From Linderina pennispora (taxonomy: Eukaryota > Kickxellomycota > Kickxellomycetes > Kickxellales > Kickxellaceae): a stretch of DNA of 64,000 nucleotides. The translations under genes and the position numbers were made by a program. The stretch lies in contig NW_024468256.1 of assembly GCF_002104995.1 (NCBI RefSeq), positions 578,001-642,000 on the forward strand, written 5' to 3'. Under the pieces are notes generated by a model. The model was not told where the DNA came from, did no database searches, and saw nothing but the letters and a program-made list of their open reading frames with translations. Shown here one piece after another: positions 10,758 through 31,363 of this stretch (within the stretch, counting starts at the first letter, position 1; every line of letters starts with the position of its first letter).

Positions 10758-10925
10758 ATGTGCACCACCAACAGTAACGCGCAGCTTGTGCTCCACAACA
10801 CTGCAAGCCATATCCCGGCCGGGGCCGAGCCGGCCAGAGTTGGATGGGTCTGTGATAATTGCTGCAATATCTACTACAATTTCGAAGAAGTTGCCAACCA
10901 CCAGAACGTGTGCACTGCGCGCTAA
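10758..10925 (+). CDS. Single zinc-finger micro-protein 1 (55 aa, C2HC)
   Basis: The ORF starts at the ATG after the pyrimidine-rich leader. The C-terminal half is one classical-spaced finger: C32, C35, then 12 residues, H48, three residues, C52. Tyr39 and Val45 sit where the C2H2 fold has its Phe and Leu core positions. The N-terminal 28 residues are Ala/Pro-rich with no signal peptide. The last ligand is Cys, making it C2HC. AATAAA at 11144-11149 follows. It belongs to the array of thirteen such genes in this window; sequence outside ligands and core is not shared. Function unknown; DNA, RNA or protein binding are all possible. Confidence 0.62.
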   Translation: MCTTNSNAQLVLHNTASHIPAGAEPARVGWVCDNCCNIYYNFEEVANHQNVCTAR

Positions 10926-11143
10926 GCACTCCTTTTGTTTGATTCGCAGGCTACCACGAGTTGTGCATTTAGCCCCTTTATGTCGGGCTGTGCGCCACAG
11001 CTTTGTTCCTATTCTTCCTCTTGCCCAACCTTCTCTGATGCCATTGTCCAACCGACTGCTCACGCAGAGAGACTGAGACCAGCTGCAGTATGCGCTCGGT
11101 CTTTCGTTGGCCCTCTATATTTTTGTAAAGTCTTGCCATCACC

Positions 11144-11149
11144 AATAAA
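11144..11149 (+). terminator. Poly(A) signal AATAAA
   Basis: Hexamer about 220 bp after the stop of micro-gene 1, same strand, just before the convergent membrane-protein gene. Confidence 0.45.
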
Positions 11150-11275
11150 CACCTAAAGACCCTCTTTCGTGCACCTAATGCTTTTTTTGCAATGCCCTGC
11201 GAGACAAATACTGTGCAAGCGATTAGCGCTTATTGATCAAGCGGCGCCGAGTCAGCCTAGGCCGAGAAAGCCTGC

Positions 11276-12150
11276 TCATTTGTCCTTCTTGGTCTCCTTC
11301 TTGACCGAGTCCTCAAACTCCTTCCTGGCCTTAGCCTTGCGGTCGGTTTCCTCCTTCAGCACGCGCGGGATCAGCGAGCTCTCGACGTAGACACGGCCGA
11401 CGACATAGACAGCGCATGCAGTCAGAATGCAGAACATGAGGGCAACAATGGGCTGGATAATGAAGTCCTCCTCATGGCGCTTGTTCGACATCAGCAGAGT
11501 CATGGCAGAACCCTCGTACCACCGCAGGTTGATCTGCATGGTAGTCACACCGCTGACAGTCTCAGGCAGCGGGTGGTCGACGACTGGGTACATAGCGGCA
11601 GCAACCAGGGTGCCCTTCTCGCCGTGCAGGACGGCATTGAAGTTGCCTGAGATCCGCTTGAGCTTGGATCCGCCGCGCACACGCACACCGTCGATATGCA
11701 GAGGAACCTCCAGGTACTGTGTGAACGTGAGCTTGTTGCGCGGGATACGGCACTTGAGCGCCCGGTTGAACGACAGCGCGCGCAGCATCTGCTCGTGGAA
11801 CTTGTCTTCGGCCTTGACTGAGCACTGGGTTGGGCCGTCTCGGCCATAGTAGAACGACAGAGCACGCCGGGACTCCACACACGTCGGACTCAACCACCGG
11901 AAGCCGCCGTCGGGGTTCATCAGCTCGCGGCCCTGCTCGCCAATCTCGGCACACTCGACTTTGACCAGGTCGTCATGCTTGAAGTCTACAAATATGAGGC
12001 AGCTCCAAGATGAGTCATTACGTTGCAATTCGCTTTCTCCGTTTTGCTTTTAGCAATTCAAAACTTACCGTCGGCCGACGCTGCCTTCTTAGCGCCCAGA
12101 ACTGCAGTCGACAGAGCGAGCACCGAGGTTAACAAGCCTGAAAGCTTCAT
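11276..12150 (-). CDS. Signal-peptide single-pass membrane protein, unknown family
   Basis: Two exons: 12150-12069 and 11985-11276. The 83-bp intron (GTAAGT...TGTAG) is in phase, joining GCCGAC-G to AC-TTCAAG. Product 263 aa. Residues 1-20 form a cleavable-looking signal peptide (MKLSGLLTSVLALSTAVLGA). A lumenal or extracellular domain of about 180 residues follows with Cys residues that could pair. One hydrophobic segment lies near 205-228 (IVALMFCILTACAVYVVG), then a charged Lys/Glu tail ending KKETKKDK. The topology is type I, like several ER translocon-associated proteins, and the dilysine-like end hints at ER retention (inference). I do not recognise the family. A TATATAAG-like box lies about 100 bp upstream of the ATG. 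Confidence 0.8.
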
Positions 12151-12727
12151 CGTTATTAAAGAGCTATGAGGTGTAGGAATTAAAAATGAGTGGAGATAAC
12201 GAGAAATGGATGAGTGGAAGAGAGAAGGACGGGCGGCCGCTACCACGCATATAAGTGAGCAGCCCGTCTGGCCCTGGTTAATTTTTCTCATGTGCACACG
12301 CAATCGATGAAAGCGCTCGATAAAAGCCTCTTGCTATCCCGTTATTCTTGTGACGACCAGTCCTGGAGAGAGGGACATGGATTTGCCGGTCCATTTCCGT
12401 TCCCACGAAACAAAGAAAGTCGATCATGTGTTGGCACCGGTTCGACGTTTCCGCTTTCGCCGTGTAATTCTATCCAACAGGTAGATTTCCAGCCAGGAAG
12501 CAGCTGGGGCTACCAGCTAAACCCAACGCGCGGCTAGGTTAGAGGCAGACACTCACTCGTGACACTGTATACATAGCTGGCTCTGGATGTAGCAAGTCTA
12601 GCTCGGAGGAGTTTTTGAAGGCGGCTACAGCCGAAAACTAGAAAGGGAGGTTAGCGCGGGCTATTTCCAAATGTGAGAGGAAGGATCAATCGGTATGGGT
12701 ACTCTGCGTGTTAAGCCCGAAGGTAGC
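12151..12727. other. Intergenic upstream of inverted duplication copy A
   Basis: Holds the promoter of the minus-strand membrane-protein gene (ATATAAG near 12247-12254). A small plus ORF begins at 12695 (MGTLRVKPEGS) and runs into duplication copy A, ending TLMSVL. In copy B the same tail is fused to different upstream sequence, so this looks like a fragment of a longer repeated ORF. Confidence 0.4.
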
Positions 12728-13213
12728 ACTGTCCAGTTAACCGATGGAGGCACCAGCACTGCTCTCATTACGCTTCATGCCGCACAACATGCAAAACAGC
12801 TACACACCCTGATGTCTGTGCTGTAGCTTCCCCTGCAGCAACTGCTGCACACTGGCTATCTGCATGGGAAGTTGCAAGGGAATGGACTGGCGAAGGCTGA
12901 AGAGGCGTCACATTTGCCAACTGTCCCCGTCCCGGTCAGTGGACACGCCGCCAACGCAGGTCCCCACTTATTGGCAGCCGGCATTGTATGGCCCTGCGTA
13001 CCCTCCACTGTCTGCCCCCGGCCCGTGACGCCATGTGCTGCTCCGACCCTTCTATTCAGTGAGTGCCGATTCCGAGAGCGCCTTTCTCCACGCGATCATT
13101 GCCGACAGGGCGCTGGCTATGACTGCCGCTGTACTCTCCCAACTGGATTGATAACTAACCGGGCGCTTCTCGATCTCCAGGCTCGCACTATGAAGTTGCT
13201 CTGCAGTGTGGGT

Positions 13214-13220
13214 TATAAGA
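13214..13220 (+). promoter_or_regulatory. TATA-like box of zinc-finger micro-gene 2
   Basis: TATAAGA 67 bp upstream of the ATG, inside the duplicated segment; conserved in copy B. Confidence 0.5.
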
Positions 13221-13286
13221 AGACAACGCTCTGCCTAGGACCTGGCCCTGTACTCTCAGCAATTTGTTCCTTAGACCTTACACACC

Positions 13287-13481
13287 ATGAGCGAATACTG
13301 GACAGCCTTTCCGTGCGACTCCGCCGAGAGCGTCAATTTCATCTGCGGCAACTGCAATGCGGTGTTCAGCGAGATGCTGACGCTGAACACGCACTGCGAC
13401 CAGTGCTGTCCATGCGCGCCTGCTGCGATGCAGGAGACAAGCAGACAGACAGCACTGAAGCGCTTGCTGTGGTTTCCCTAG
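13287..13481 (+). CDS. Single zinc-finger micro-protein 2 (64 aa, C2HC)
   Basis: The finger uses C20, C23, twelve residues, H36, three residues, C40, with Phe27 and Leu33 at the core positions of a classical beta-beta-alpha finger. Extra cysteines follow (C37, C41, C43), so ligand choice on the C-terminal side is ambiguous. It is duplicated as micro-gene 10 in inverted copy B, where the encoded protein differs at a single residue (Gln to Arg near residue 54). The first 19 residues are acidic. No signal peptide. A longer overlapping plus frame (12872-13543, 223 codons, no domain) is probably a shadow. Confidence 0.62.
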   Translation: MSEYWTAFPCDSAESVNFICGNCNAVFSEMLTLNTHCDQCCPCAPAAMQETSRQTALKRLLWFP

Positions 13482-13936
13482 GCACCTGCCAATCAACACA
13501 AGCAAAGACAAGGCGCCCCATTCAACTCCACCCACCCGTCTGAGGCGCAATGTGCAGGGGCTGAGCTGATTGCCAGACCAGACCAGCATTGCCGCCTCTC
13601 GATCTGCGCCAGGTCCTTGCATGCAGGCGTGCTTAAAGCGTCTATCGCAACAAAGGAACACATCTCGGGATCTGTTTTGCAGATCAATTACCACATCACA
13701 GGTGTTTGTTTTCGCGCCTGTCCTGCTGGTCCCGTGAACCAAGATGCTGCATTGCATATGTTGCATGTATATATTTATTACCTACTAGAAATACTCTGCT
13801 CGCGATGCGAGCTCGGCTGCTAGTCAGCATGGGTTGACACGTCGATAAGAGCATCACAACGAACCGATCATTTGAACGTGTCGGATGGTTGTTGGTGTAA
13901 TGGCGATCATGGACATCTCCCACCTTGGTGGCCTGC

Positions 13937-15357
13937 TCAGCGCAGACGCTTCAGCGCTGGCTCGCTGCTACTGGCAGCAGAATCGCCTGCTGCTGCACGC
14001 CTCTTGCGCGACCTCTTTGTTGCAGGGGTGGTGCCAGAAGCATCGGCAGCAATGGCCGTAGGACGACGGAACCGTTCAGGAATACTGCCTGAATCACAGA
14101 GTGACTGGAAAATGAGCCTGAAGCTTAGAACTGCTGCGAGATCGCGGTTCAAGAGCCGAGACAAATAGGCTCGCCTGTATTGTGCCATGGCCCGCTTACA
14201 TGACTCGCTTGTACAGCGGAGAAGGCCATGGCACTTCACAGTTGGGTTCTTCGATCTCTGGTAGGGCTGCGGGTTGGGAACATGTCGGAATGTCTGCTGC
14301 AGTGGCCTCTGTTTCATCTGATGGCATCCTCGCTGCTTCGCGTGCAGCCTTCTTGGCCAACTTTTCGCCCCTTTCTGCTGCTTTCCTTGCCTCTGTTGCT
14401 GCCCTCTTTGCTGCGTTGATCTTGGTAACCTCCTCACATGTTTTCGAAACAAACACCTGCTTGATTATTTGCTTGTCCAAACGTACATGGCCTGGGATCC
14501 ATGATGTCCGCAGAGGCAAGCATTGGGGGGAGACTTGCCAAGCTGCTCATTCTCGATAAGCTGGCATAGGCGAATTTATGCACGCAGATGCTGAAGTGGA
14601 TTTACCTTGGCATCATAGTATCGGCTGTCTTTGGCAAATCTGTACTTGGCACCATAGGCATTGAGGACTGGTGCCAGCTTGTTGTAGATTGCAAGCATCG
14701 GTGGGGTGAGCACACTGAGATCAGGGTGCCTAGAGGCAACTGCCTGGCGGAGCTTCTGTGCAGGTGTATAAATATACACTTGACATGCGTTATTGAACTC
14801 AGCCTTGGACACATTGCCCATTGTACTGTGCAGTGTGTTTTTGCGGCTGCGAATATCAATCAATTTGGCCAGAATCCGCTGTAGGCAAGTGCCATAGTGC
14901 AACACAATGTTGTTCTTGTATGCTGTCATCAGCTCGGTATCCACGCATGTCGCTACTTGATTCATTTCGCATATGCCATGTAGCTCGATATCGCCATTAT
15001 GCAATAGATAATCATAAATATGGTATCTAATTACATCACCGAAATCTGCGCTCGACAGTTCTGACTTGTCCTTCCAGTTAACGAAATCCTTGGCAGATAT
15101 GGTCGTCTTTGCCTTCAGATTGTAATAAATAAATAAATAAATTGGACAAGTGAAACCCTTTTCACTAATACTGCAAGGTCAAAGGCATCATTGTCAGCTA
15201 GTTGATGGAGCAATATCCATCGTGCAAGCATGTGTGTATGCTCCTTGATGATATTGACTCTGTATACAAATTGCTCTAGGTGGGGCAATATAGAATCACG
15301 GAAGCCAATACCACCAAGTGATGTCTTTATGACAGTAGTGCTGCGGGTAATATTCAT
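13937..15357 (-). pseudogene. Decayed Fanzor / TnpB-like gene (eukaryotic RNA-guided nuclease family)
   Basis: Pieces of one protein can be read in shifted minus-strand frames. 15357-15115 starts MNITRSTTVIKTSL, the type of N-terminus I associate with zygomycete Fanzor proteins. The reading resumes after a shift in an ATTT repeat near 15120 and continues to about 14576 (ends LQHLRA). Further fragments follow at 14519-14196 and 14452-13937. The last contains CHGLLRC, a SESC pair, then LLNRDLAAVLSF and RFRRP, which resembles the zinc-ribbon plus RuvC-III NRD motif that closes TnpB/Fanzor. The RuvC-I and RuvC-II acidic motifs were not found, and stops interrupt the frames, so it is inactive as read. 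Family call is inference from motifs. Confidence 0.6.
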
Positions 15358-16425
15358 TTGAGAAATTCGGTAGGCAAGTAAGAAGAGAAATAATGCTGTT
15401 CAGTTTTGCTTTATTGCGTATGCATAGCATTAAGAACTTTTTATTAAGAATGATCTGGCTTGCATGGTTCTTGGGGCCCTTAGCACTGATACAGTCTCTT
15501 GAATCAGTCTATACAGACTGGGTCCATTGTGGCCCAAATACTACTGCTTACGCATGCTCATAAGACAAATTAATTTATAAAATAAACCTACAAATATTGC
15601 ATGACCGCTAGAAGAGCTATATGGCCTTATTCAATAAGTGCTCATAAACAAATATCCTAAGAGTGTTGCGCAGCCGGTGATGACCACCATGATGATGCCA
15701 TAGAAGTTATCAGGCTGACTGACAATGAGAGCAGCTCTTGCGCTGAACCAATGGAGATATCTAGTGGAGACCTGTGACCACTACAATAACAACTTATCAG
15801 AGGCTAGACTCTACCTCCATATTGTTGGCTGTAGCGGGGCTCTCGTTGGCGCCTGGCTTGCTGTCACCTGATTCGACTAACATGTCGACGTCAGGGATAG
15901 CCGCAGCGGGCGCGCAACAGTACCACACGGTGGAGTTCATTAGGACTGATGTGTTGATAAACTGCCGGGTGTTGTGCTCAGCAGTAAAGTCCAACATCAT
16001 CTTGCTGACATCCATGCCGATGATAGCCAAGCCCATGATCAAGTGCTTCTCGATGCCCAAAATCAATGATGTGATAGAGCATGCTGAGAGCGGCCGTATC
16101 CACCATCGTGCTGTCTTGACCAGCTAGTTCTTTTTTGGGCAGCCACAAGTCTAGTATATGATCGTTTACAAGCCAATAATGCCCGTCCGCCTGCTGGCAT
16201 GGTGATGTCCCCCTCAGCCGCGCTTCCCTCCACTGTGAACCTGGTTACGGAGTCCACTCAGCGGCAAGAATCATCCCGAGTAGGCGAATGCTTCCCAAGA
16301 CCCACATGGCATGTGTACCAGCGAGTAGTGAAGTGAGTTTTAAAGGAAGTGGATTTTAAAATACCACCAGGGTGAGTGTTATAAACGCTTGTTTCTGCCT
16401 GAATATGTGCAAAATGCTATTTTGT
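15358..16425. other. Transposon-like debris between Fanzor remnant and permease
   Basis: More AT-rich than neighbours. Minus ORFs at 16066-15797 (starts MILGIEKHLIMG, 89 codons) and 16257-16063 are open but I recognise no domain; they may be remains of another mobile-element ORF. Nothing else supported. Confidence 0.35.
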
Positions 16426-18081
16426 TTACTTTTCGCGAGAGTTGCGCCCAGCAATATACACGTCCGATTCAGGGTCAAAGATCGAGTCCCTGATCAGGTC
16501 GGCCTCCTCGGGCCGCACCCACTTTGTCTTCTTGAAGTACTTCCAGCCGCCATAGAGGATAACAATCACGGGAATGGACACATACGAGGATACAAACGAG
16601 CGCGCATCGAAGCCATCAGCGAAGGCAGTCCAGCCCTGGCCAAAAATGATAATGATGATGGTGACCAGGCAAAAGGCCGGGCCAAACGGATAAAGAATAG
16701 CCGTGTACGGCAGATCCTTGACATCGAACCCCTGGCGCACATAGGCCCGGCGGAAGCGCAGGTGGGCGAAGGAAATGCCTGCCCAGGCGGCGAAGCCAGT
16801 GACACCAGACAGACTCAGGATCCACATATACACAACCTGGTCGCCGATCAGCGACAGCAGGAAGATGATAGTGGCGACACCCAGCGACAGTGCCAGGCAC
16901 CAGATCGGGATGCCGCGTTTGGTGACCTTGCGGAACACGGCGGGGGCCTGGCCATGCATGGCCAGATTCCATAGTGTACGGGTGGCGATGTAGATGCACG
17001 AGTTTCCGGCGCTTAGCACGGTAGTCAGAATAATTGCGTTCATGACGTCGGCTGCGGGCTCCAGACCGGCTTTCTGGAAGACGATGGAGAAGGGTGACTG
17101 GCCAATGTCTTTGGTGCTTGCCTTGACCAATGAGTCGTTGGTATACGGGATAATTAGGCCGATGAGGAAGATGCATGAGACGTAGAACAGGAGGATGCGC
17201 CAGAACACCTGGTTCACCGCCTTGGGAACTGTCTTGACTGGGTCCTTGGCCTCGCCCGCAGTGATGCCGATGACCTCGGTTCCCTGGAAAGAGTATCCGG
17301 TGAGAATCAGCGTCGCCAGGACACCTGGCACGCCGTCATAGAACGGGGCGCCCTCGACATGCCAGTTCTCGAACCCGTAGGTGTGGCCGCCAAGCCCGCC
17401 CGCAGCGACCACAATAGCAATGATGATAAACACGATGACCGTGATGACCTTGATCATGGCAAAGTAGAACTCGGCTTCGGCATACCCGCGCACGCTGAAC
17501 AGGTTGAGCCCCAGCAGAATCAGGGCGGCTAGAATCGACCACAGCACGCCGCTGATGTTTGGCAGGTAATACCGGCACACAATGCCTGAAGCCACCAGCT
17601 CTGATGCCGTCACGCACACGTAGTTGAACCAGTAGTTCCAGCCGAGCGCAAACCCAATCGCCTGGTCGCCGTATCGCGACGCATACTCGTTGAACGATCC
17701 GGCGATCGGTGTGAATGTCGCGACTTCGCCCAGCGAGGACATCAGGAAGAACACGATGATGCCCATCAGCAGATACGACACAAGTGCTCCGCCCGGCCCG
17801 GCCGATGCCAGCGACGTGCCGGCGGAAATAAACAGCCCGGTGCCGATGGTCCCGCCCAGAGCAATCATCGTCATGTGGCGTTCCTTCAGCTGGCGCTTGA
17901 GCCCATGCACCTTGGTGCTGTGGGACTGGCCGTCGTTGTCACCCATTTGCGAAATCGACGGGCTGAGATCGGCCATCTCGATCGCGTCGGCATCCCCGTG
18001 CTCAGGCTTGGTGGCCGACTGTGCCGCTGTCTGCTTGTTGCGCCGCTTTGAGAATATCGCGCCAACTCCCTTGATGGCCAT
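16426..18081 (-). CDS. Amino-acid permease (YAT/AAP family)
   Basis: Intact 551-aa ORF, the usual length for fungal plasma-membrane amino-acid permeases. A cytosolic N-terminus of about 75 residues precedes the KRQLKERHMTMIALGGTIGTGLF block, the family signature at the start of TM1 (GGTIGTGLF). About 12 hydrophobic segments follow, including SLGEVATFTPIAG and the conserved FQGTEVIGITAGE stretch in the middle. Substrate would be amino acids taken up with protons; the sequence is nearest in feel to the basic-amino-acid branch (Lyp1/Can1-like), but I cannot fix specificity. It has no intron and is transcribed away from the SR-protein gene. Confidence 0.93.
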   Translation of the reverse strand: MAIKGVGAIFSKRRNKQTAAQSATKPEHGDADAIEMADLSPSISQMGDNDGQSHSTKVHGLKRQLKERHMTMIALGGTIGTGLFISAGTSLASAGPGGALVSYLLMGIIVFFLMSSLGEVATFTPIAGSFNEYASRYGDQAIGFALGWNYWFNYVCVTASELVASGIVCRYYLPNISGVLWSILAALILLGLNLFSVRGYAEAEFYFAMIKVITVIVFIIIAIVVAAGGLGGHTYGFENWHVEGAPFYDGVPGVLATLILTGYSFQGTEVIGITAGEAKDPVKTVPKAVNQVFWRILLFYVSCIFLIGLIIPYTNDSLVKASTKDIGQSPFSIVFQKAGLEPAADVMNAIILTTVLSAGNSCIYIATRTLWNLAMHGQAPAVFRKVTKRGIPIWCLALSLGVATIIFLLSLIGDQVVYMWILSLSGVTGFAAWAGISFAHLRFRRAYVRQGFDVKDLPYTAILYPFGPAFCLVTIIIIIFGQGWTAFADGFDARSFVSSYVSIPVIVILYGGWKYFKKTKWVRPEEADLIRDSIFDPESDVYIAGRNSREK

Positions 18082-18504
18082 GTTGACAGTAGGAACCCTG
18101 CAAAGATATTTGTGTTAAAAATGAAAAGAGCGGAAAAAAGCGAGGCTGGTGCGTGAGTTAGCTGCACAGACTGTGTTTGTCTGGAACCTCGGTTAGTCAT
18201 AGTCATTCCCCCCAAAGAATAAATTAAATGTGCCGCAGACAGCGAAGCGACAGGGCAAAAATTTTTGTCATGCGCTTTGAAGGTTCTCTAGAAATGGCGC
18301 ACTACCAATCGACAGCAGGACTACCGCATATGGAAGGTTTGGAAAACCACTGGGGAGCGCAGAGGGATTCTCGAAACGAGAAAAGGCTTTATTATACGTC
18401 TTGAAGACAAAACCAAGTGGTGGGCCCAGCGTTTTCCTTCCAAGCAGATGAGGATCGGCTGCTGCTGCTAGCCCACTGGCTGCACACAGGCGCGAGGCAC
18501 ATCT

Positions 18505-20132
18505 CTACTCCCAGCCGTCGCTTCCGTTCTGGTCCGCAGAGGGCTCGGCACCCGCCGGAGGCAGGTCAGCGCGGCTGTTGGCGTCAGGCGAACGGGGCGA
18601 CGCGTTGGCGTTGTCGCGCGGCGGCAGCGGCGACGGGGAGCGCGGAGCAGCAGCAGGCGGCGGCGGCAGATCGTTGGGCCCGTCCCGCATGACTGGGCTG
18701 CGCGACCGTGAGCGGGGCGATCCCGGCGAGTACCGGCGGGCCGGTGGCGGCGGCGAGCGCGACGACCGGTTGTTGTACGACGACCGGCGGTAGCGCGGAG
18801 AGCGGGAGCGCTCCCGCGAGTACGAACGCGAGCGCGACCGGCGCGACGACCGGCGCGGCGAGTACGAGCGCTCACGCGGGTAGCGGCCGCCTCCACCTCC
18901 GCCGTTGCCACCGCGAGGGCCAAAGTCCTAAAGAATCAAGAAATCAGGGGTTAGATTGGCGCGTGTCGGCGATAGTCGGGGTGTCTGCACCTGCTCGGTG
19001 CACTTACCTCACGCAGAACCACGCGGCGACCGCGGAGCTCCTCGCCGTCGAGCTTGCGCAGCGCCGTGCGCAGGCCCTCCTCGTCGACAAACTCGACGAT
19101 GCCCTCGCCAGGGCGGAGCTTGTGGGCGTCGGCAAACGACACCTCGCCCGCGCGCCGGGCAAAGTCCTTGAGATCCTATATAGCGAGCGAGCCAAGCCAG
19201 GCGGTTGCAGAACGTATCCCCCCATAGCGCGTTAGACCGTGTTCACCGCCACACCGATGAAATTTCCGTATGCCACGCCGTATCAGACGTCGCCATCCCC
19301 CACCACACAGCAATCCAGCCCGTGCAGAACCGCAACAATCGAGCAATATCGCCAGCTTTTATCCAGCGTGTGTAGACTAAAATCTCTGGCGCTCCAAAAC
19401 AAACTGTGCCCGCGCCTTCACCAAATCACAGCAGCAAGCGCGACGTGTTCCTCTCAGCCATCCTCCCCGCTGCGCCGTTGCTTTCGCTGCGTACGCGCCA
19501 ACAGAAAAAGGACTGCCCAAACAACCACTCTCACGCACGCTGTCTCAATGGAATACACAGGAAATAGAGGCAATCAGCACAAAAAAGAGCACTCCACCTG
19601 CCCCACCCTCGGCCACGCGCCAATAAGCCGCCATCAGCGCGCTAGCCAGGCGAGAGCAGAGGCGGAGTGGATGAAGCACGGGAGGAGCGAAGAGCACACC
19701 ACTGTCTAGTGCTCTTCAACAGTCTTATCATGCAACCAAATCCACAGAAAACCAACCGACGAAACTTACCTGCCAGCTCACCGACGACGAAAGGTTCTCG
19801 ACGAGCATGCGGAACGGCGTGCGCTGTGGCGCGCCCATGCTGCCCATGCGGCGTCCGCGGTCGTCTCCGCGGTCCTCACGCCGGAAGCCGCGGTCCATCC
19901 GCTCGCGGCGCCGGTCAACACGGGCCGGCTCGATCAGCAGGCGCTCACCCATGAAGTCGCGGTTGTTGAAGTCGTGCATCACGTCCTCGGCATCGCGCCG
20001 GTCGCGGAACTCGACAAACCCGAACCCGGACAGCAGGCAGATGTCACGGATCTCTCCGTATCCCTTGAACAGCTTCTCGACATCGCGCTCACGCACATCA
20101 CGCGGCAGACGACCGACATACAGGCGGGACAT
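18505..20132 (-). CDS. SR splicing factor with two RRMs (SRSF4/5/6-Srp2 type)
   Basis: Three exons: 20132-19770, 19175-19008, 18927-18505. All junctions are GTAAGT...AG and keep frame, giving 317 aa. RRM1 starts at residue 3 (RNP2 LYVGRL, RNP1 SGFGFVEF). RRM2 is a pseudo-RRM whose hallmark SWQDLKD heptad (residues 119-125) is split across the exon 1/2 junction. The rest is Gly-rich then an RS domain with many Arg-Ser dipeptides and Pro-rich spacers, ending DGWE. SR proteins bind exonic enhancers and recruit the spliceosome. Intron 1 is 594 bp, far longer than other introns here, which may matter for regulation. Confidence 0.92.
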
Positions 20133-20403: not shown

Positions 20404-20541
20404 TCACAGGTGCACCCTGGTCGCGCAGTACAGCCAGTGGCCTTCGAATGAAGTCAGATCGTCAAACAGTTCATGGCACATCGGACACAGCACGGCGTTG
20501 TAGCAGCAGCGACATATAGGGGGACCGCTGGTGATAGCCAT
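20404..20541 (-). CDS. Single zinc-finger micro-protein 3 (45 aa, C2HC)
   Basis: ATG at 20541. The finger takes C19, C22, twelve residues, H35, three residues, C39; Phe26 and Phe32 occupy the core positions. A CRCC cluster at residues 10-13 precedes it. A TTAAAGAG box lies about 175 bp upstream of the ATG on the minus strand, with a C/T-rich leader between. The reading frame extends upstream to another in-frame start (20700), but the finger-proximal ATG is the simplest choice. No signal peptide. Function unknown. Confidence 0.58.
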   Translation of the reverse strand: MAITSGPPICRCCYNAVLCPMCHELFDDLTSFEGHWLYCATRVHL

Positions 20542-20713: not shown

Positions 20714-20721
20714 CTCTTTAA
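20714..20721 (-). promoter_or_regulatory. TATA-like box of micro-gene 3
   Basis: TTAAAGAG on the minus strand, followed by a pyrimidine-rich leader towards the ATG at 20541. Confidence 0.35.
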
Positions 20722-21156: not shown

Positions 21157-21303
21157 CTAAGCGTGTCCCAATGGCATCAGCCGGTGGTCGCCGCAATCAG
21201 CGAAATGCAGCGCCAAGGCGCACTCTTCATGGAACGTTTCATCGCACAGCGGACAGAAGAACCCGCACACGAGCGCCGACTTGTAACCAGTGATGCATAC
21301 CAT
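21157..21303 (-). CDS. Single zinc-finger micro-protein 4 (48 aa, C2HC)
   Basis: ATG at 21303. Ligands C17, C20, H33, C37 with 12- and 3-residue spacers; Phe24 and Leu30 at the hydrophobic core. Short flanks: sixteen residues before (starting MVCITGYKS), eleven after. A GTATATTTTT stretch around 21451-21460 on the minus strand could be the TATA element, about 150 bp upstream. The frame extends further upstream without a recognisable domain. Part of the micro-finger array. Confidence 0.6.
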   Translation of the reverse strand: MVCITGYKSALVCGFFCPLCDETFHEECALALHFADCGDHRLMPLGHA

Positions 21304-21941: not shown

Positions 21942-22088
21942 CTACAATACTACACTTTCAACATTGGTACTGGTATTTTTCGCATGCTCATCGGTTTGGG
22001 TGTGAGCATTAAGCTCTTCTAGCGTCGTGTATGCCTTTGTCTGGTCGCATGCGAAACAAAAGATTCTCTGCTCGCCCTTGCCACTCAT
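21942..22088 (-). CDS. Single zinc-finger micro-protein 5 (48 aa, variant C2H2)
   Basis: ATG at 22088. The finger is C11, C14, fourteen residues, H29, five residues, H35. The knuckle has a two-residue insertion relative to the other members, but the Tyr20-x5-Leu26-x2-His29 core spacing is exactly classical. Both distal ligands are His. The tail is Thr/Asn/Val-rich. Possible promoter element GTATGTATAC near 22240. This is the most divergent finger in the array, so somewhat less certain. Confidence 0.5.
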   Translation of the reverse strand: MSGKGEQRIFCFACDQTKAYTTLEELNAHTQTDEHAKNTSTNVESVVL

Positions 22089-22273: not shown

Positions 22274-22340
22274 AAGCGACACACACCAAGTGACACACAC
22301 CAAATGACTTGCACTCGCCAAGTGACTTGCACTCGCCAAG
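22274..22340 (+). repeat. Short imperfect tandem repeat (14-18 bp units)
   Basis: Four consecutive units: two of AAGYGACACACACC type, then two of AARTGACTTGCACTCGCC type. It lies in the 5' region of micro-gene 5 on the opposite strand. Confidence 0.75.
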
Positions 22341-23021: not shown

Positions 23022-23171
23022 TCAGGAGTGACTCGATTCCACGTGCACGTTGTACGATTCAAACTCATGGTATATCGCTCCACAGTAGAAGCAGACAAAC
23101 GCCTGCTGGCGAGTAAGCGATTTACACAGCCTCAATTGGGACAGGTTCTTGAATGCTACGTTACAGGTCAT
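23022..23171 (-). CDS. Single zinc-finger micro-protein 6 (49 aa, C2H2)
   Basis: ATG at 23171. The finger is C27, C30, twelve residues, H43, four residues, H48, one residue from the stop. Tyr34 and Tyr40 replace the usual Phe and Leu. Upstream are a TATATACT element (23213-23220, 45 bp from the ATG) and a TATAAGCC element at 23397-23404 about 230 bp away; the latter with its C/T-rich leader looks more like the other members. The N-terminal 26 residues include C3 and C16. No signal peptide. Confidence 0.55.
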   Translation of the reverse strand: MTCNVAFKNLSQLRLCKSLTRQQAFVCFYCGAIYHEFESYNVHVESSHS

Positions 23172-24061
23172 CGCAAGAGGGCGTATGTGGTTGGTATATT
23201 AAGAAGGAATATAGTATATAAATGATCCAGTATAGCCAGCAAGGTCAAGGAAAGAGAAGCAAAAAATGGCGGCAGCGGGAGGGAGTGGTAATCGAACAGT
23301 AGAGAATGGTAACCGCAACGCAACCCGTACAGCGATGACCAGGTGGCAGAAAAAGAACGAGTGAGGCGGCGAGCGACGGCAAACAAGCGGCATGCTGGCT
23401 TATATTTTTTTCTTAAAGAATATTGCCTGTCGGGGCAGTAACAGAATAACCTCGACCGCTTGGCTTGGTGGGTGTATGTGGCTTGCCTTCGTGCTCAGGT
23501 CCCTTGTTTGCTCCAACGTGGGTAGTGCATGACGCCCAGTGAGATTGTGCATGATTTTTGTTGGCATCCTTCGCCTCATTTTCAATTGTCACCTTGATTG
23601 TTTCTGAAAGAGAGCGACATGGTAGAACCACGTCTCTATTCCGTTTCGATTCGGTATTGTTGGCTGAAGTGTCTACGAATATAAGGCAGAAAGGAAGACG
23701 TAACGGACAGCAAGCCCTGCCTATGCCTATTCTCGCACGAGTGCCTTCCTTTTTTGCCGTCCTGCTCTATGATCTGCCCAACAAGTACAGGAGTAGAAAT
23801 GAGGCCTGCGAGTTATTGTGCCGGTGGCACCAATTGAACAAAGCGCCTTCCGCAGTCTTCTGATCCTCCACTTTAGGTGGAAAGTCCATGTCTGTAGGGA
23901 ATGATGCAATTGACTGCCAAGCACACAAACAGGGAATATCAGGTAATGGTGTCGTCAGAAAAACGCACCTCAGCCTTGCACTTGCAGCATTGCGCAGGCC
24001 ACCTGACAAGGGGGCAGGAGGATCCGCTTCTCCCAGCAGCACAGATCGCGGTGCATACATA

Positions 24062-24235
24062 CTATACGGCGCAGCGAAATACATGTTGCACGAGCCTATC
24101 TTCATCGTGGAACTCCGCCCGACAATAATAGCAATTGTATACCCGGTGATCTGCACGCTTGACAGGGCAACGGCGACGCCAGCACCAGCACCAGCACCAG
24201 TGAACGTAGCTGAAAATCCTCTGTAGAAACCCCAT
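24062..24235 (-). CDS. Single zinc-finger micro-protein 7 (57 aa, C2HC)
   Basis: ATG at 24235, about 100 bp below a perfect TATAAAAG. The finger is C35, C38, twelve residues, H51, three residues, C55, two residues before the stop; Phe42 and Leu48 are the core. Upstream of the finger a hexanucleotide repeat (AGCACC on plus) encodes an unusual WCWCWCW stretch at residues 13-19, followed by a basic RRRCPVKR segment. The Trp/Cys repeat may be simple-sequence slippage or an additional metal-binding element. Confidence 0.6.
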   Translation of the reverse strand: MGFLQRIFSYVHWCWCWCWRRRCPVKRADHRVYNCYYCRAEFHDEDRLVQHVFRCAV

Positions 24236-24332
24236 TTGAAAACGGTGGTTTGTGATTGTGTGAGCTAATGGAAGGATGCAGCTTGTGAGTATCCCAGGAC
24301 GTCCAAAGAGAGATCCTATCCACGATTGTTCG

Positions 24333-24340
24333 CTTTTATA
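24333..24340 (-). promoter_or_regulatory. TATA box of micro-gene 7
   Basis: Perfect TATAAAAG on the minus strand, about 100 bp upstream of the ATG. Confidence 0.62.
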
Positions 24341-24572
24341 CCTTCACTCTGGTTGGCATGGGTTAAATCCTCCATATCTTGGCAGCACCACCCACAGCGT
24401 AGTGGTAGCTTTGCGATTCTTGATTCCGTAGCTCCCCATCACGAATCATATAGAAGACAACAGCTATCATTGATGAGTTGGTATTATGTGCGAAAGCATA
24501 ATAAGAATTTACATAAATGTCTTGCCACTTGGTGGGAGGAAGTTGTTGTAGTGCCATCCACCCGCTTTGGCC

Positions 24573-24677
24573 CTACTTGCAAAAATAAGCACGGTGCACC
24601 TCGAGGAAGTCGGAGTAGGCGAAGGTGTCGCCGCAGATCGTGCATTCGTACCCAGAGCTTTGCGCAGTCGACTTCAT
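24573..24677 (-). CDS. Single zinc-finger micro-protein 8 (34 aa, C2HC)
   Basis: The smallest member, essentially just the finger: C12, C15, twelve residues, H28, four residues, C33, then Lys34 and stop. Phe19 and Leu25 are the classical core residues, so this is the cleanest finger in the set. ATG at 24677, with TATAAAGG about 130 bp upstream. An 11-residue Ser-rich leader precedes the finger. A product this size could only fold with zinc. Confidence 0.6.
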   Translation of the reverse strand: MKSTAQSSGYECTICGDTFAYSDFLEVHRAYFCK

Positions 24678-24803
24678 TAGAACGATAGGCGCGAGAAAAT
24701 AATTTATGTACTCGGTGAGTGGCGAAAGGTAACAAGAAAAAACTGGCAAAAACCTGAAGGAAAAAGAGAAAAATCGGAAAGACACCAATCGATAGGGCGG
24801 CAT

Positions 24804-24811
24804 CCTTTATA
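24804..24811 (-). promoter_or_regulatory. TATA box of micro-gene 8
   Basis: TATAAAGG on the minus strand with a T/C-rich leader to the ATG at 24677. Confidence 0.6.
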
Positions 24812-25078
24812 ACCCCTGGACGGGCAAACGTTCCTGACACTCGCTGATACACAGTTGCCGGAAAAAGCGATACCACACTATAATTAGTCTGGCTTATTTT
24901 CTGCCCGCAACTCCTTTTTTTAGGGACCCAACTGGCGGCCAGCCGCCTGAAACTCTTCCGGCTTTTCTAGCTTGTGGTCGAGTCTATTTTTGGGCCGGCA
25001 GTGCAAGCACACAGAGGATCCACAGAATGGCACTGGCGAATTGACCGAATGGGAAGAGGCAGAAACAGCCCTAGTACT

Positions 25079-25228
25079 CTACCTATGCCCCTGCGTTGGC
25101 CTAAAGACGGGCTGGTGTTTGCACGAGGGTACGTGTCCGTTGAGCAAGTCAAGAGACACAAAACCAACATTGCATCCAAAGCACACAAACGGCTCGTAAA
25201 CAAAGTAAGGGGAACTAGTGGGGTGCAT
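25079..25228 (-). CDS. Single zinc-finger micro-protein 9 (49 aa, C2HC)
   Basis: ATG at 25228. Ligands C16, C19, H32, C36 with 12- and 3-residue spacers; core Phe23 and Leu29. A basic tail of 13 residues (KHQPVFRPTQGHR) follows. TATATACC lies about 100 bp upstream. Overlapping longer frames of 205 aa minus and 86 aa plus have no domain and are taken as shadows. Confidence 0.6.
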   Translation of the reverse strand: MHPTSSPYFVYEPFVCFGCNVGFVSLDLLNGHVPSCKHQPVFRPTQGHR

Positions 25229-25325
25229 GGTTGAGTATTATTGGTGCAAATAAGCGCAGTGAGGAGAGGAGATATACATTGAGATGGAGGAAGGGGAGGA
25301 AGAAAAAGAGGAAGAGGAGGAAACT

Positions 25326-25333
25326 GGTATATA
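25326..25333 (-). promoter_or_regulatory. TATA box of micro-gene 9
   Basis: TATATACC on the minus strand, about 100 bp upstream of the ATG, followed by a long C/T-rich leader. Confidence 0.5.
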
Positions 25334-25719
25334 ATCTTTCCAAAGTCCTCAAGGCATAGAGGTAACGAAAATGGGGGTGGAGATGGCTGAGGTGAAGCTT
25401 TTTTAATATGTCCTTTTTGGGCAACCCCGCATACATGCAACATATGCAATGCAGCATCTTGGTTCACGGGACCGGCAGGACAGGCGCGAAAACAAACACC
25501 TGTGATGTGGTAATTGATCTGCAAAACAGATCCCGAGATGTGTTCCTTTGTTGCGATAGACGCTTCAAGCACACCTGCATGCAAGGACCTGGTGCAGATC
25601 GAGAGGCGGCAATGCTGGTCTGGTCTGGCAATCAGCTCAGCCCCTGCACATTGCGCCTCAGACGGGTGGGTGGAGTTGAATGGGGCGCCTTGTCTTTGCT
25701 TGTGGTGATTGGCAGGTGC

Positions 25720-25914
25720 CTAGGGAAACCACAGCAAGCGCTTCAGTGCTGTCCGTCTGCTTGTCTCCTGCATCGCAGCAGGCGCGCATGGACAGCACTG
25801 GTCGCAGTGCGTGTTCAGCGTCAGCATCTCGCTGAACACCGCATTGCAGTTGCCGCAGATGAAATTGACGCTCTCGGCGGAGTCGCACGGAAAGGCTGTC
25901 CAGTATTCGCTCAT
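25720..25914 (-). CDS. Single zinc-finger micro-protein 10 (64 aa, C2HC; copy of 2)
   Basis: Near-identical duplicate of the gene at 13287-13481 in the inverted segment: same length, same ligands C20, C23, H36, C40, one residue changed (Arg for Gln near residue 54). Both copies remain open, although flanking positions differ at several bases. That is compatible with recent duplication and does not by itself prove selection. TATAAGA lies 67 bp upstream, as in the other copy. Confidence 0.62.
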   Translation of the reverse strand: MSEYWTAFPCDSAESVNFICGNCNAVFSEMLTLNTHCDQCCPCAPAAMQETSRRTALKRLLWFP

Positions 25915-25980
25915 GGTGTGTAAGGTCTAAGGAACAAATTGCTGAGGGTACAGGGCCAGGTCCTAGGCAGAGCGTTGTCT

Positions 25981-25987
25981 TCTTATA
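25981..25987 (-). promoter_or_regulatory. TATA-like box of micro-gene 10
   Basis: TATAAGA on the minus strand, 67 bp upstream of the ATG; duplicated with the gene. Confidence 0.5.
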
Positions 25988-26473
25988 GCCCACACTGCAG
26001 AGCAACTTCATGGTGCGAGTCTGGAGATCGAGAAGCGCCCGGTTAGTTATCAATCCAGTCGGGAGAGTACAGCGGCAGTCATAACCAGCGCCCTGTCGGC
26101 AATGATCGCGTGGAGAAAGGCGCTCTCGGAATCGGCACTCACTGAATAGAAGGGTCGGAGCAGCACATGGCGTCACGGGCCGGGGGCAGGCAGTGGAGGG
26201 TACGCAGGGCCACACAATGCCGGCTGCCAATAAATGCGGACCTGCGTTGGCGGCGTGTCCACTGACCGGGACGGGGACAGTTGGCAAGTGTGACGCCTCT
26301 CCAGCCTTCGCCAGTCCATTCCCTTGCAACCTCCCATGCAGATAGCCAGTGTGCGGCAGTTGCTGCAGGGAAAGCTACAGCACAGACATCAGGGTGTGTA
26401 GCTGTTTTGCTTGTTGTGCGGCATGAAGCGTAATGAGAGCAGTGCTGGTGCTTCCATCGGTTAACTGGACAGT

Positions 26474-26944
26474 ACAGTCATTAAGCGCAAGCCTTGTCTT
26501 AGCCCACGGATATCCCAAATAGCATTGAAAGCTAGTGCCAACTGTCATCTTAGGACAACGTTGGCAAATCAATAGTGTTTTATGTATACTCTGAACTCCA
26601 TGTAATGAACATACCACCTTGTAAAACCTTTCAATATTTACTGATGTCCCTTGTGCTGGAAGATAGTGTAATCCTATTTTCTAGATTAATGTCGTAGCTG
26701 CATTATCACTATCATAAAATTGATAATATAGAGACGCAATTGAAGGTTGTTGTGGTTGGGTTGAGAAATCTATATTATTCTTTGAATGTGTTGAGTAGAA
26801 TGGTAACCAATAGAATAAGGAACTGCAGGATGTATATTGTCTGCCAAGTCTCACATTATGCAGTGCTACTACAGTTACTCTCCAGATATAGAATGACAGT
26901 ATAGATCATAGAAAAGCTTCATAGTCTACTATCCAATTTTTATT
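26474..26944. other. AT-rich debris beside duplication copy B
   Basis: A minus ORF from 26617 (starts MVCSLHGVQ, contains CQRC) runs into copy B and ends TLMSVL at 26375. Its last 32 codons are shared with copy A but its N-terminal part is not. The remainder is AT-rich with no domain. Probably mobile-element or chimeric sequence. Confidence 0.35.
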
Positions 26945-27151
26945 TTATCCAGAAATCCTGAATTTGCAATGGAATTTAAGAGTGCATGTCTCCTTTGACT
27001 TATTTGCACCGTGATAGGCTGCATCGATGCATGCCGCATGTCTCTTCTTATCATGATGTGCAATAATATGCGCTATGCCATCAGTCACGGAATAGAATCT
27101 CCGCGAGCAGTAGCGGCAGCTGTATATGTTGACTTCGCTGCATTGAGTCAT
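26945..27151 (-). CDS. Single zinc-finger micro-protein 11 (68 aa, C2H2)
   Basis: ATG at 27151, about 100 bp below TATAAAGA. The finger sits at the N-terminus, unlike the others: C12, C15, twelve residues, H28, three residues, H32, with Phe19 in the core. This is a standard C2H2 finger. A 36-residue tail follows that is basic and Lys-rich with three more cysteines. No signal peptide. Surrounding DNA is more AT-rich than around the other members. Confidence 0.6.
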   Translation of the reverse strand: MTQCSEVNIYSCRYCSRRFYSVTDGIAHIIAHHDKKRHAACIDAAYHGANKSKETCTLKFHCKFRISG

Positions 27152-27247
27152 GTTTGTAGTGTAGAATGATATGTAGAATGTGTTTGAAAAGGACGGAGCA
27201 GATTGTGTTGCGTACAGTATTGGAAGAGTAAACTGGTCGGATCATCC

Positions 27248-27255
27248 TCTTTATA
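27248..27255 (-). promoter_or_regulatory. TATA box of micro-gene 11
   Basis: TATAAAGA on the minus strand, about 100 bp upstream of the ATG. Confidence 0.58.
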
Positions 27256-28612
27256 GAGAACCCACACAAATTACACTACCCCTAAAATGATTCCACGACA
27301 CCTGAACTGTGATCCTGTTCAGAGATATATGATCTAATGAGTGCATGGCATGTTATTCCTACCTCATGTTTTCCAAAGTAAAACTACTCATGGGTAGCGA
27401 GTATCTTTTTCCTGCAAGGAGATGCAGACAAGTCGTGAGTGGTAGTGGATAAGTTGTTGTCTGTTGCCTTAATTGATAGCTGCAGCATCAATTCAGCATT
27501 CACAAAAAGTGTTTGTACATAATGTGCCCATGTAGAGACATAATCGGAAATATTTAGCATCTGGAACGAAATTAACAGACCGAGTCAAGACCTACAACAT
27601 GACTGCTCATAATCAGAATTGACTAAGTTTCACAAATGGTTTCGTGATACTCAGTTATACTATCTTCGTTTCCTTATACAGGCCTATTCAGTGACATATC
27701 TTGAAAAAAAAAAGCATGCCCCCGTTGTTGTAGGTCTAGAGCACACGGTGGGTGATATAGGGCGAAAGGGGGAAACAGATAACGAGTAACGAAAAATACC
27801 TGATATGTGAATGTGTGTATTTTTTGTGTATCATGGGTTCTAAATATGCTGTCAAGCGATGGCATCTCAATCCAGAGATGTGCGAGCGGTGTGAGCATAT
27901 CAGCAACAGAAAATGACATAGTCAAGTAGTATATATTGATGGAGAGAGCTATAGAGAAAAGAAAGGGAGAGGCGAGCGCAAAAGTCTTATACCATCGCTC
28001 AGGTGGCAGAGCCAGAAATAAAAGAAAAAACAGCAGGATGAAAAACCATGTAGTTCACAATAATCGGATCTTGAGATTCTACCAAGACCAACACAAAGAG
28101 AAGTTGCATATATTGCAAGACTGCCGGGCAGGCTACGAGAGGAAGAACACAGTCACCTTTCAGAAAACCGCTGCCACCGAAAAGTGAGCACGTGTGATGG
28201 GTAGAGGTGCTACATGCATCCATAGGAGGAGGTTGCCAGCGACACACCAATCAAAGGCGAGGTCACTGGGAATTCACTCATGACCCTCTGGCCGAATTTG
28301 CAATGTGTGAGGGCTCATCCTGCTTTCTTCAAAGGCATCATTATCCTGCCAGTCCACGTATTCCTTGCAATAGCAAAAAAATTGGCTTATGCTGATGCAT
28401 AGCCGCATGTTCCTCAACAAAAATCCACACCAAGCAGGAAGGCAGACGGCAGAGATATACCACATACGCAGCTTTCGGCATTGGAACAGTTCTTTATTAT
28501 ACGGTATCGAGTATTGACAGGTGATTATGAGCCAGATCCAGGACCTGTATGGTGCTCTGCCCTTGGTTTCAGGTCCTTTTGTTACGGGTGCGCACCTACC
28601 CGGCACGGCTGA

Positions 28613-28675
28613 CTAGTGGCCACCAAATCGGCAATGGATGCAGTCGTCGACACCGTTACCGCTCGTAGGATCCAT
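28613..28675 (-). pseudogene. Possible truncated zinc-finger micro-gene
   Basis: 20-codon ORF starting MDPTSGNGVDD followed by CIHC and then a stop after RFGGH. A TATATAGC element lies about 140 bp upstream, as in intact members. It could be a decayed copy, a sequencing frameshift, or chance. Confidence 0.25.
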
Positions 28676-29743
28676 GATGTGTTGTTGCTCAGTCCTGTGT
28701 TTATTTCGTCTCCTTCAGAATGGTGCGGTCAGCAAAAAAAAGACACTCCTTGTAAATGCTGGTGCAAGAGAGAAAAGGAGAAATACGTGCCAGGCGTTTC
28801 CCCTTTCACAATTCCCAGCTATATAACTACTACATTAGCAAGTCTGAGAGCAGCGGTCGCAAGGGGTGCAATAAAAAGGGGCATGTCAAACGTCATTTCC
28901 GAAACTTTCTTGGCAGGGTGAGGAAGATCGACAATGACCTTTCCTTTTTTGTACAGCACATGGAGCGCTATGTACCCACCACTCATGTTTTAGCGAGTTG
29001 CTGATGATCCTTGTATCAAGATATTCTTGCACGCGTTTTGGGGAGAAGCGCAGGCGACATGTGGTTTGGTTCAATATACCTGATTTTCGCTGCGTCCACA
29101 TACGCAGAAGGCTGGGTGGCATCACTGTAAACAAACTAGAGCGTTTTTGGTTGACCAGAGCCAATCAGACCCGCACTTGATCGCTCGAGAACATAGCATG
29201 AGGCATGGTTCATGTGAAAAGTGGGGTTGTTAGAGAACCGGACCCACGTTTTTGTTAGTTATTTACATGTTTTCTCGTTTGTCTAGCAATGGATGACTAG
29301 AACCGTGCCCATCAGGCCTTAAAAAATAAATCCACACGATGATTCTGCCTACTCTTAAGCTCGAGATGCCAACATACCCCTTGTCTCTGCGGTACTCGCA
29401 GCACTGAGGAAAGTCCCCTTCGTGCATTTTGTCTGAAGTCGGCCAAAAGCCGGCTCAATCACGAATGCCCAGTGGAGTATGTAGGTGCTCATGCTTCGCA
29501 TATCCGCAACACCCACCACAGGTTGTCCCACCGCTGCAGATTATTTGTTGTATTCGGATGTGGGTGTACACTTGGGAGTGTACTGTCGGCCTTGGCTGAT
29601 TTCCGAATATGCCGGTCACATGGGTATCATGAACACAATCAGGTTTATGGCTTCAAAAAATGGCCCATGGGGGTTTTATTTTTATTCACAAAGCGGCATG
29701 CAGTATGGTGAAAAGTAGCATCAATGGGGTGATGCCCGAGGGA

Positions 29744-29881
29744 CTAGCGGATGTAGCTGGCAGCACTATCCTTGAGAAGGGTGCACCTGAATATATGGCT
29801 GCCGGGGTTCTCTGTCATGGACGAGATTTCTCCGCAGTTGAAGCAGCGCTCCTGGGTAGGCTGGGAGAAATCAGAGTACAT
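29744..29881 (-). CDS. Single zinc-finger micro-protein 12 (45 aa, C2HC)
   Basis: ATG at 29881. Ligands C13, C16, H29, C33 with the 12- and 3-residue spacers. The core positions are atypical (Ser20, Pro26), so the finger may be less stable or not a classical fold. A TTAAAAGT box lies about 130 bp upstream. The last 12 residues are polar. Confidence 0.5.
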   Translation of the reverse strand: MYSDFSQPTQERCFNCGEISSMTENPGSHIFRCTLLKDSAASYIR

Positions 29882-30010
29882 TGTATGATGGTGTTTGGTG
29901 GTGCGAATTGAGGCCAGTAGGGTAGAGTTTGCAAAAAAAAAAAAGAAAAACGGCTGGCATCTAGTCACATAGCGTCCAGACTTGACTTGCCAGCACAAGG
30001 AATAGGCGTG

Positions 30011-30018
30011 ACTTTTAA
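30011..30018 (-). promoter_or_regulatory. TATA-like box of micro-gene 12
   Basis: TTAAAAGT on the minus strand, about 130 bp upstream of the ATG. Confidence 0.4.
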
Positions 30019-31219
30019 GTCAGTTTTCCTGGCATCCCTACCTGTGTTCCCTCGCAAACTACGCAGAGCTCTGGCCAATACCGCAATGAGGGGAAATGCG
30101 AGTGATGGCGGCGTATCCTAGGTCTATTTATCCTCTTTTCAACCTGTCCCTCAGGTAACAATGTGATACACGGAAGTGAGGTATAAAACTTGTTTTGCAC
30201 AGATCTGTCTAAAATTATCCGCCACAAGGTGGACATCTTCCCACCACTCCAAAGAGACGCAAAACCTTCCACTTTGCATACCTGCTGCAGCACTGTGCTT
30301 CCGAGGCGCATATGCTAGGTGTGCAGATAAGATGTCACGTTGGCATTGACACCAAAGAATATACATGGTAGGGTGAGAGTAAGAAAGGGGAGTAGGCGGA
30401 TAGCATACGGTTGGGTAAACCCGTTTTTTGTTAGTGAGGCGTGACCAGCACCTCATCTTTCCCATCCTCAGGCAAATCCTTGTGTCCATGCTTACCTTAT
30501 GATTGGGCTTCACACTTGCTTATCTCTCCCTCACTAGGTGATTTGCCCGGGGCTCGGCTGTTGCGAATTCATATGGTGCAGCGAGGGGACAGGGCTGCTG
30601 ACGGGAATGAGGGGGGTGTTGACAGCTGAGAACCATGCTGTGGCCGCTGGGTCGTCGTTCTGCACTGGGGTACACCGCATGCACAGCCTTGCCCTTCTGG
30701 CGACGCCAGCACCACGCACACGGCCCACATGGCCGCTTTTGGACGAAGAAGGATCCACATGTGTTGTTTCCCAGCACTCAACCCAACTTTCTCAGTCCTC
30801 TTCTTTTCGCTTGACCCATCTGATGAGTGGAGATCATAGGGCTTACCACGTTGCATTGGACGACAATGCCCAGTACACGTTTGTTGTTTCCCGAGGGCAA
30901 GGCAAGGAAACGAAGCGAGTTCCGAGTTTGATATTCTGGCAATAGCGCAAAAAAGTGTCTCACTTGCTTGAAATTGAACCATTTTATTTAAACTATGAGC
31001 TGTAGAAACGAGGGAGGGAGAAGTTGACTATTTTGAGCACATCCGATGAATGAGGGGATGTGTGGAGATAAATATGGCCGTATAGCTAATAGTGGGGAAA
31101 TGCAGCTAGCATATACATAGCAGAGAAAGGTCGAGTAGTAGTTTGATTTATATACCGTGTCAAATCTGACAAACATGGGAGGGCAAGGCGACATAAGGCC
31201 CCGGCATGATGATCTCTGG
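30019..31219. other. Intergenic, no gene recognised
   Basis: A plus TATAAAAC (near 30182) and several short ORFs are present, but none has a finger with correct spacing or another domain. A minus frame at 30311-30015 ends with CVVC and a stop twelve residues later, where the His would be expected. Confidence 0.4.
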
Positions 31220-31363
31220 TCAGAACCGGCGGGGAGGGAAGCACCCCTTGAGGTGCTCATACAGCTGCATCACGGTGCTAAACTCGCTCTGGCAGTGGAC
31301 ACAGAAGATGCGCTCGTTGCTCTGGTGGAGGCAGCAGGGCGAGGTGGTCAGTGATTTGGCCAT
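31220..31363 (-). CDS. Single zinc-finger micro-protein 13 (47 aa, C2HC)
   Basis: ATG at 31363. Ligands C21, C24, H37, C41 with the 12- and 3-residue spacers; core Phe28 and Leu34. Residues 9-13 (PCCLH) add possible ligands. The C-terminus FPPRRF is basic. A perfect TATAAAAC lies about 130 bp upstream with a C/T-rich leader. A strong example of the array's layout. Confidence 0.62.
   Translation of the reverse strand: MAKSLTTSPCCLHQSNERIFCVHCQSEFSTVMQLYEHLKGCFPPRRF

Follow-up and report, generated by a model that had tools for sequence, protein, structure and literature searches.

A 64,000-nucleotide stretch of the genome of the kickxellalean soil fungus Linderina pennispora (hereafter the window; positions 578,001 to 642,000 of NW_024468256.1, a contig of 910,674 bases that we call C201, in an assembly of 26.17 Mb and 222 contigs) carries an array of very short open reading frames (ORFs), each encoding one zinc finger. 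We found that this array is real and under selection, and that it is best seen as one local cluster in a wider set of single-finger ORFs of this genome, most of them apparently unannotated. The explanation that we think probably accounts for these observations, judging from sequence features, is that the micro-ORFs are independent single-exon genes of this wider Linderina set, whose fingers act as protein-binding modules rather than as classical DNA binders.

An earlier note, made from the letters of the window alone, had listed thirteen ORFs of 34-68 codons with a single finger each, and all thirteen were verified in the sequence at their places and on their strands, two on the plus strand and 11 on the minus strand between 20.4 and 31.4 kb. 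Every one consists of an ATG, a short variable stretch, one finger of the pattern Cx2C-x12/14-H-x3-5-C/H, a tail of 1-35 residues, and a stop. Numbered by position, the plus-strand micro-genes are 1 (10758..10925, 55 amino acids, with a C2-x12-HC finger at the C-terminus) and 2 (13287..13481, 64 amino acids). Those on the minus strand are micro-genes 3 (20404..20541, 45 amino acids), 4 (21157..21303, 48), 5 (21942..22088, 48; also named 21945), 6 (23022..23171, 49, C2H2), 7 (24062..24235, 57; 24065), 8 (24573..24677, 34), 9 (25079..25228, 49), 10 (25720..25914, 64; 25723), 11 (26945..27151, 68, C2H2; 26948), 12 (29744..29881, 45; 29747), and 13 (31220..31363, 47; 31223). Cysteine is the fourth ligand in ten of the thirteen, in agreement with the note's "at least nine", and histidine in the other three; the one variant with x14 spacing is micro-gene 5. 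As the note also had it, most fingers keep the aromatic and Leu-like core residues, the exceptions including micro-gene 12, which lacks both. The zf-C2H2 core pattern was found in eight of the ten x12 members at 20-32 kb and in both plus-strand members, leaving micro-genes 11 and 12 and the x14 member without it. Micro-genes 2 and 10 encode proteins that are 98% identical and lie on opposite arms of an inverted segmental duplication of 1,043 bp (12728..13770, plus, and 25431..26473, minus; positions from cross-matches), which occurs twice in the homologous contig C89 as well. Because this pair are duplicates, the note's thirteen genes reduce to 12 distinct ones, though thirteen ORFs are present.

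The density of the array far exceeds chance. Counting ATG-initiated ORFs of less than 120 amino acids that contain C2C-x12-H-x3-5-[CH], we obtained ten at 20-32 kb, all on the minus strand, compared with a mean of 0.045 and a maximum of 1 in 200 dinucleotide shuffles of the same interval, the kind of comparison that the note had named among its refuting conditions; we therefore judged a chance origin of the array unlikely. The same count gave 2 at 10-20 kb and none at 1-10 kb or 32-64 kb. Relaxing the motif limits gave 19 matches in the entire window, and the 6 outside the set lacked the core aromatic residue by eye.

We next compared the array with C89, a 21.7-kb contig that matches window positions 10,981-34,367 at ~97% identity except for one 2-kb stretch and covers all micro-ORFs but micro-gene 1. 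C89 represents either the second haplotype or a duplicate of recent origin, and the former is favoured because many finger-profile matches come in pairs of one large and one small contig. The 12 covered micro-ORFs together show 20 changes in 381 synonymous sites and 10 in 1,470 nonsynonymous sites, giving a ratio of nonsynonymous to synonymous differences per site (pN/pS) of 0.13 (Fisher test, P = 4.5 × 10−8), with 5, 3, and 22 differences at the first, second, and third codon positions. By comparison, 49 other ATG-initiated ORFs of 34-120 codons at 20.3-31.5 kb had a pN/pS of 0.81, and the micro-ORFs themselves gave 3.1 and 1.3 in the +1 and +2 frames. Divergence from C89 was 2.7% in the 120 nucleotides before the ORFs, 3.1% in the 120 after them, and 3.2% (305/9,538) across the interval outside ORFs, while the 11 minus-strand ORFs together held 28 differences versus 55.2 (standard deviation 10.4) in randomly placed segments (P = 0.002). 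Starts and stops were preserved in 12 of 12. When 171 ORFs were ranked by the selection test, four micro-ORFs fell within the first 12, the other places being taken by the genes for the amino-acid permease and the proteasome ATPase and by ORFs that overlap with them or with micro-genes; no larger ORF at 20.2-31.5 kb was prominent in the ranking. Purifying selection thus acts on the micro-ORFs as a group.

By member, micro-gene 3 was unchanged in C89; micro-gene 4 differed by one synonymous change, micro-genes 6, 10, and 12 by two synonymous and no replacement changes each, micro-genes 5 and 8 by two synonymous and one replacement change each, micro-gene 2 by one synonymous and two replacement changes, and micro-gene 9, present in one copy per haplotype, by a single replacement. 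Micro-gene 7 carried five synonymous changes and one stop, along with 24 extra bases in C89, micro-gene 11 ends 4 codons earlier there, and micro-gene 13 has a 1-base deletion at codon 40. Four of the ten nonsynonymous differences are stop-making bases, one in micro-gene 7 and three in the tail of micro-gene 11. The "rapidly diverging" family of the earlier note is apt for the paralogues, whose fingers are 12-32% identical to the first finger, and not for the alleles, which are mostly conserved.

The array is flanked by the amino-acid permease and proteasome-ATPase genes, and its interval (20.2-31.5 kb) has a GC content of 0.485 versus 0.58 at 32-42 kb. More broadly in this assembly, parts of long contigs recur in many of the short ones, with ~96-99% identity in the cases compared (C89, C12, and C63), a pattern that resembles a heterozygous or two-nucleus isolate.

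Candidate expression signals lie around the ORFs. Among up to 4,096 hexamers, TATAAA was the most enriched upstream of 23 micro-genes (12 from the window and 11 others), occurring in 11 of the 23 versus 5.9% of background windows (raw P = 2 × 10−8). Matches to this hexamer, recognized by sequence only, lie on the minus strand at −105 of micro-gene 7 (24335..24340), −104 of micro-gene 11 (27250..27255), and −137 of micro-gene 13 (31495..31500). A purine occupies position −3 in ten of the thirteen, and AATAAA or ATTAAA occurs within 400 nucleotides downstream of seven, a raw count not compared with its chance rate. Each micro-gene would probably have its own promoter.

Single-finger micro-ORFs extend well beyond the window. 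Eight stretches of C201 outside it, 73 kb in all, held 15 motif ORFs of less than 150 amino acids, of which 11, at 331-429 kb, were convincing; four (386761, 419337, 645489, and 649829) were set aside by eye as doubtful or chance-like. On other contigs, seven of 11 short stretches contained an intact single-finger micro-ORF, on six contigs, and four did not, bringing the further members to 18. These stretches were chosen for their matches or nearness, and the counts give no density; likewise, our own 25-residue finger consensus found only six places in the genome and yields no genome-wide count, and PF13894, PF13912, and PF12171 matched many short frames, with PF13894 catching just 3 of the 13 window genes, so that no total can be drawn from them. 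Besides the inverted pair of micro-genes 2 and 10, signs of local duplication include a neighbouring pair on C201, 390138 and 391370, that is 54% identical. When the 12 distinct window members were used to search a protein database, only the 64-residue one (micro-gene 10) was returned; because the search draws on no more than 100 words, coverage of each member was by sample only, and the other 11 are probably absent from the database.

Eight of the 11 further C201 members share an H-F-[FY]-P-x-L motif at or near their end, and one of them leads outside the species. The exact pattern H-x4-HFFP had 15 matches in the genome versus 8 for its reversed control: seven on C201, four on C12 and C63, which are copies of C201, and four elsewhere without a finger ORF. 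Over 543 sites, four H-F-F-P allele pairs showed one synonymous and no nonsynonymous difference; divergence in the 3-kb stretches around them is 1.4-4.2%. The gene that we term the founder of this subfamily, at C201:428975 with paralogues on the same contig, matched 11 database proteins under nine Coemansia names and from Martensiomyces pterosporus and Dipsacomyces acuminosporus, all labelled "hypothetical" or "uncharacterized", 52-57 amino acids long, and complete in nine cases and partial in two. Across the 12 aligned founder sequences, RLY...C.ICG..F.....A..HV...HFFP.L is invariant. Hypothetical proteins of the H-F-F-P type in the Kickxellaceae include GQ54DRAFT_297290 of Martensiomyces, GGI04_003275 of Coemansia thaxteri, and DL89DRAFT_268123 of Linderina. 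A phage match to the founder (30.6% identity, E = 0.6) was dismissed as chance. In Pfam the Linderina founder stayed below the cut-offs listed, scores having been set against cut-offs for the first member only. The window members resemble these Kickxellaceae proteins in size, in having a single finger near the C-terminus, and in architecture, but differ from them in lacking the H-F-F-P-x-L tail and in mostly using cysteine as the fourth ligand; the pairing of an invariant RLY ahead of the finger with HFFP-x-L behind it was absent from the six window members aligned, and by eye from the others. From their sequences we accordingly class the window members simply with the single-finger microproteins of this genome and outside the H-F-F-P family. 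The note's proposal of an expanded, finger-only micro-protein family conserved for function is supported by the low pN/pS, the TATAAA enrichment, the further members, and the relatives in sister genera of one such gene that lies outside the window.

What the proteins might do is suggested mainly by the chemistry of their fingers. The mean net finger charge was −2.1 for the 12 window members and −0.9 for the 18 others, versus +2.5 for 35 fingers from multi-finger frames of the same genome (the P value for this difference ignores relatedness). Arginine or lysine occupied one of the four base-contact positions (−1, 2, 3, and 6) in 3 of 29 micro-fingers versus 31 of 35 multi-finger fingers, as counted by eye with the x14 finger left out. 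None of 30 proteins had a long hydrophobic N-terminus, the highest mean hydropathy over 15 residues being 1.81 in what is a crude test rather than a signal-peptide predictor. Because the fingers are acidic on average, mostly lack basic contact residues, and are not preceded by a long hydrophobic N-terminus, an intracellular protein-binding adaptor is preferred over a DNA binder. We envisage that each gene would yield a protein of 34-68 amino acids around one zinc-stabilised C2HC or C2H2 finger, which would fold around the metal and serve as a small protein-binding module, either an adaptor or a competitor of larger partners, with the partner set by the variable N-termini and tails. Copies would arise through local duplication and then diverge, the array being a local expansion in a wider single-finger microprotein set, one subfamily of which has a founder common to other Kickxellaceae; in that founder, the invariant RLY and HFFP-x-L segments may serve as docking elements.

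The strongest competitor is that these are small nucleic-acid-binding regulators whose single fingers contact DNA or RNA aided by flanking sequence, which we consider unlikely. In its favour is the C2H2 fold family: the micro-fingers share Cx2C, the aromatic residue, the Leu-like residue, and the histidine at matching spacing with the classical C2H2 fingers of PF00096 and PF13894, and the best PDB matches of the finger profile are DNA-binding fingers, but that ranking probably mirrors which fingers have been solved, and searches of solved-structure sequences mostly returned generic fingers. NCBIfam gave sub-threshold matches only, chiefly to a zinc ribbon. The micro-fingers depart from the classical fingers in scoring below the family cut-offs, in their average acidity, and in standing one to a protein; the tandem fingers of multi-finger DNA-binding C2H2 proteins are not seen in them, and the basic contacts only rarely. 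Mean whole-protein charge is close to zero (0.0 in the window and −0.6 among the others), with some members positive, namely micro-genes 7 (+5) and 11 (+6), and these two could bind nucleic acid. Scans of the window with Rfam at its gathering thresholds and for tRNA genes found nothing.

That the proteins are secreted effectors or toxins, as the note had also entertained for effectors, seems improbable: they are small, contain cysteines, and are multicopy with divergent paralogues, but their cysteines sit in finger spacing, conservation within the species is strong, and the hydropathy test above offers no sign of export. Still less credible is a field of pseudogenes or remains of a selfish element that merely looks conserved. 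Two alleles are broken, the interval is GC-poor, and there is a mobile-looking insertion nearby at 13.8-15.8 kb, but the pN/pS value, the retention of the founder across genera, and the copy number argue otherwise, and the note's suggestion of a selfish element is not supported. With three of the 12 members used as queries, each haplotype had a single copy of two of them, and the third was found only as its inverted duplicate, rather than in the copies repeated genome-wide that a transposable element would show. The insertion itself (13781-15790) comprises ~2 kb absent from C89 and looks like a mobile-element remnant; Pfam gave no family for three of its ORFs, and by eye its ORF fragments recur at C201:568-578 kb, a region that is also GC-poor and showed no micro-finger ORF. 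Equally remote is the idea that the fingers belong, as exons, to one or a few large zinc-finger genes that are spliced, since against the shared strand and fairly regular spacing of 11 of them stand the conserved ATG and stop of each of the 12 compared, the background-like divergence directly outside the ORFs together with the 22 of 30 changes at third codon positions, the upstream TATAAA enrichment, and the annotation of the sister-species founder as a 52-57-residue protein, complete in 9 of 11 cases.

Several observations weigh against independent, selected genes for protein-binding microproteins. Synonymous divergence in the ORFs is 5.2%, above the 3.2% background, and part of the low pN/pS arises because of this excess; most micro-ORFs are not significant on their own, as they carry so few changes. 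Two of the 12 are broken in C89, micro-gene 7 by the 24 extra bases and a stop that replaces the first ligand cysteine and micro-gene 13 by its one-base deletion, reflecting either real polymorphism in dispensable single members or contig errors. In the 400 nucleotides upstream, TATAAA is lacking for eight of the 13 window genes. Ten window members, all distinct ones except micro-genes 5 and 7, were scanned with Pfam and fell below every cut-off listed, the best scoring 19.0 bits against the 25.2 of PF00096. When the profiles of the founder and the window members were compared, only the finger core matched (hhalign probability 89, 23 columns), which leaves a shared ancestry of the two groups no more than plausible. 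Finally, the finger of micro-gene 11 is net positive (+2), and the protein-binding role is inferred from charge and residue pattern alone.

These results suggest that genes of 34-68 codons under selection can form a whole family in a eukaryote, one that seems to be largely missing from protein databases. Such genes offer compact modules in which to test how a single zinc finger comes to act outside DNA binding, and the shared founder provides an entry point into a little-studied branch of the fungi. In other heterozygous assemblies, a simple way to such genes is the allele-pair test used here, which looks for a pN/pS below that of control ORFs from the interval concerned.

Known systems offer two parallels. 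In plants, the MINI ZINC FINGER microproteins are small and compete for larger partners; they carry a ZF-HD finger, and as the finger type differs the analogy is one of mechanism only. There were also weak, sub-threshold Pfam matches to DUF7128 and DUF7410, which we take to be haloarchaeal families, and these matches probably reflect the Cx2C half of the finger. The closest known kind, by analogy and with no claim of shared ancestry, is found in haloarchaea, where dozens of proteins of less than 70 amino acids per genome, each a predicted small zinc finger, have been reported (PMC6562870, PMC11241148, PMC10716476). In Haloferax volcanii, 12 of 16 deletion mutants of one-domain zinc-finger micro-proteins are reported to have had a phenotype (PMC6562870). 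The haloarchaeal proteins carry two C(P)XCG motifs (PMC11241148), unlike the Cx2C-x12-H-x3-5-C/H of Linderina, and inspection of the window members by eye found no such pair. Titles and abstract openings in the literature searched, mostly without subscription journals, yielded no paper on a fungal family of this kind. We tentatively raise the possibility, for which we would give somewhat less than even odds, that single-finger zinc microproteins form a large layer in Kickxellaceae genomes, for the most part unannotated, with dozens of them in each genome and some in local arrays. This layer would parallel in kind, among eukaryotes, the zinc-finger micro-proteome of haloarchaea, and in it an ancient founder with an invariant H-F-F-P-x-L docking tail would have been duplicated and re-aimed into many lineage-specific protein-binding regulators.

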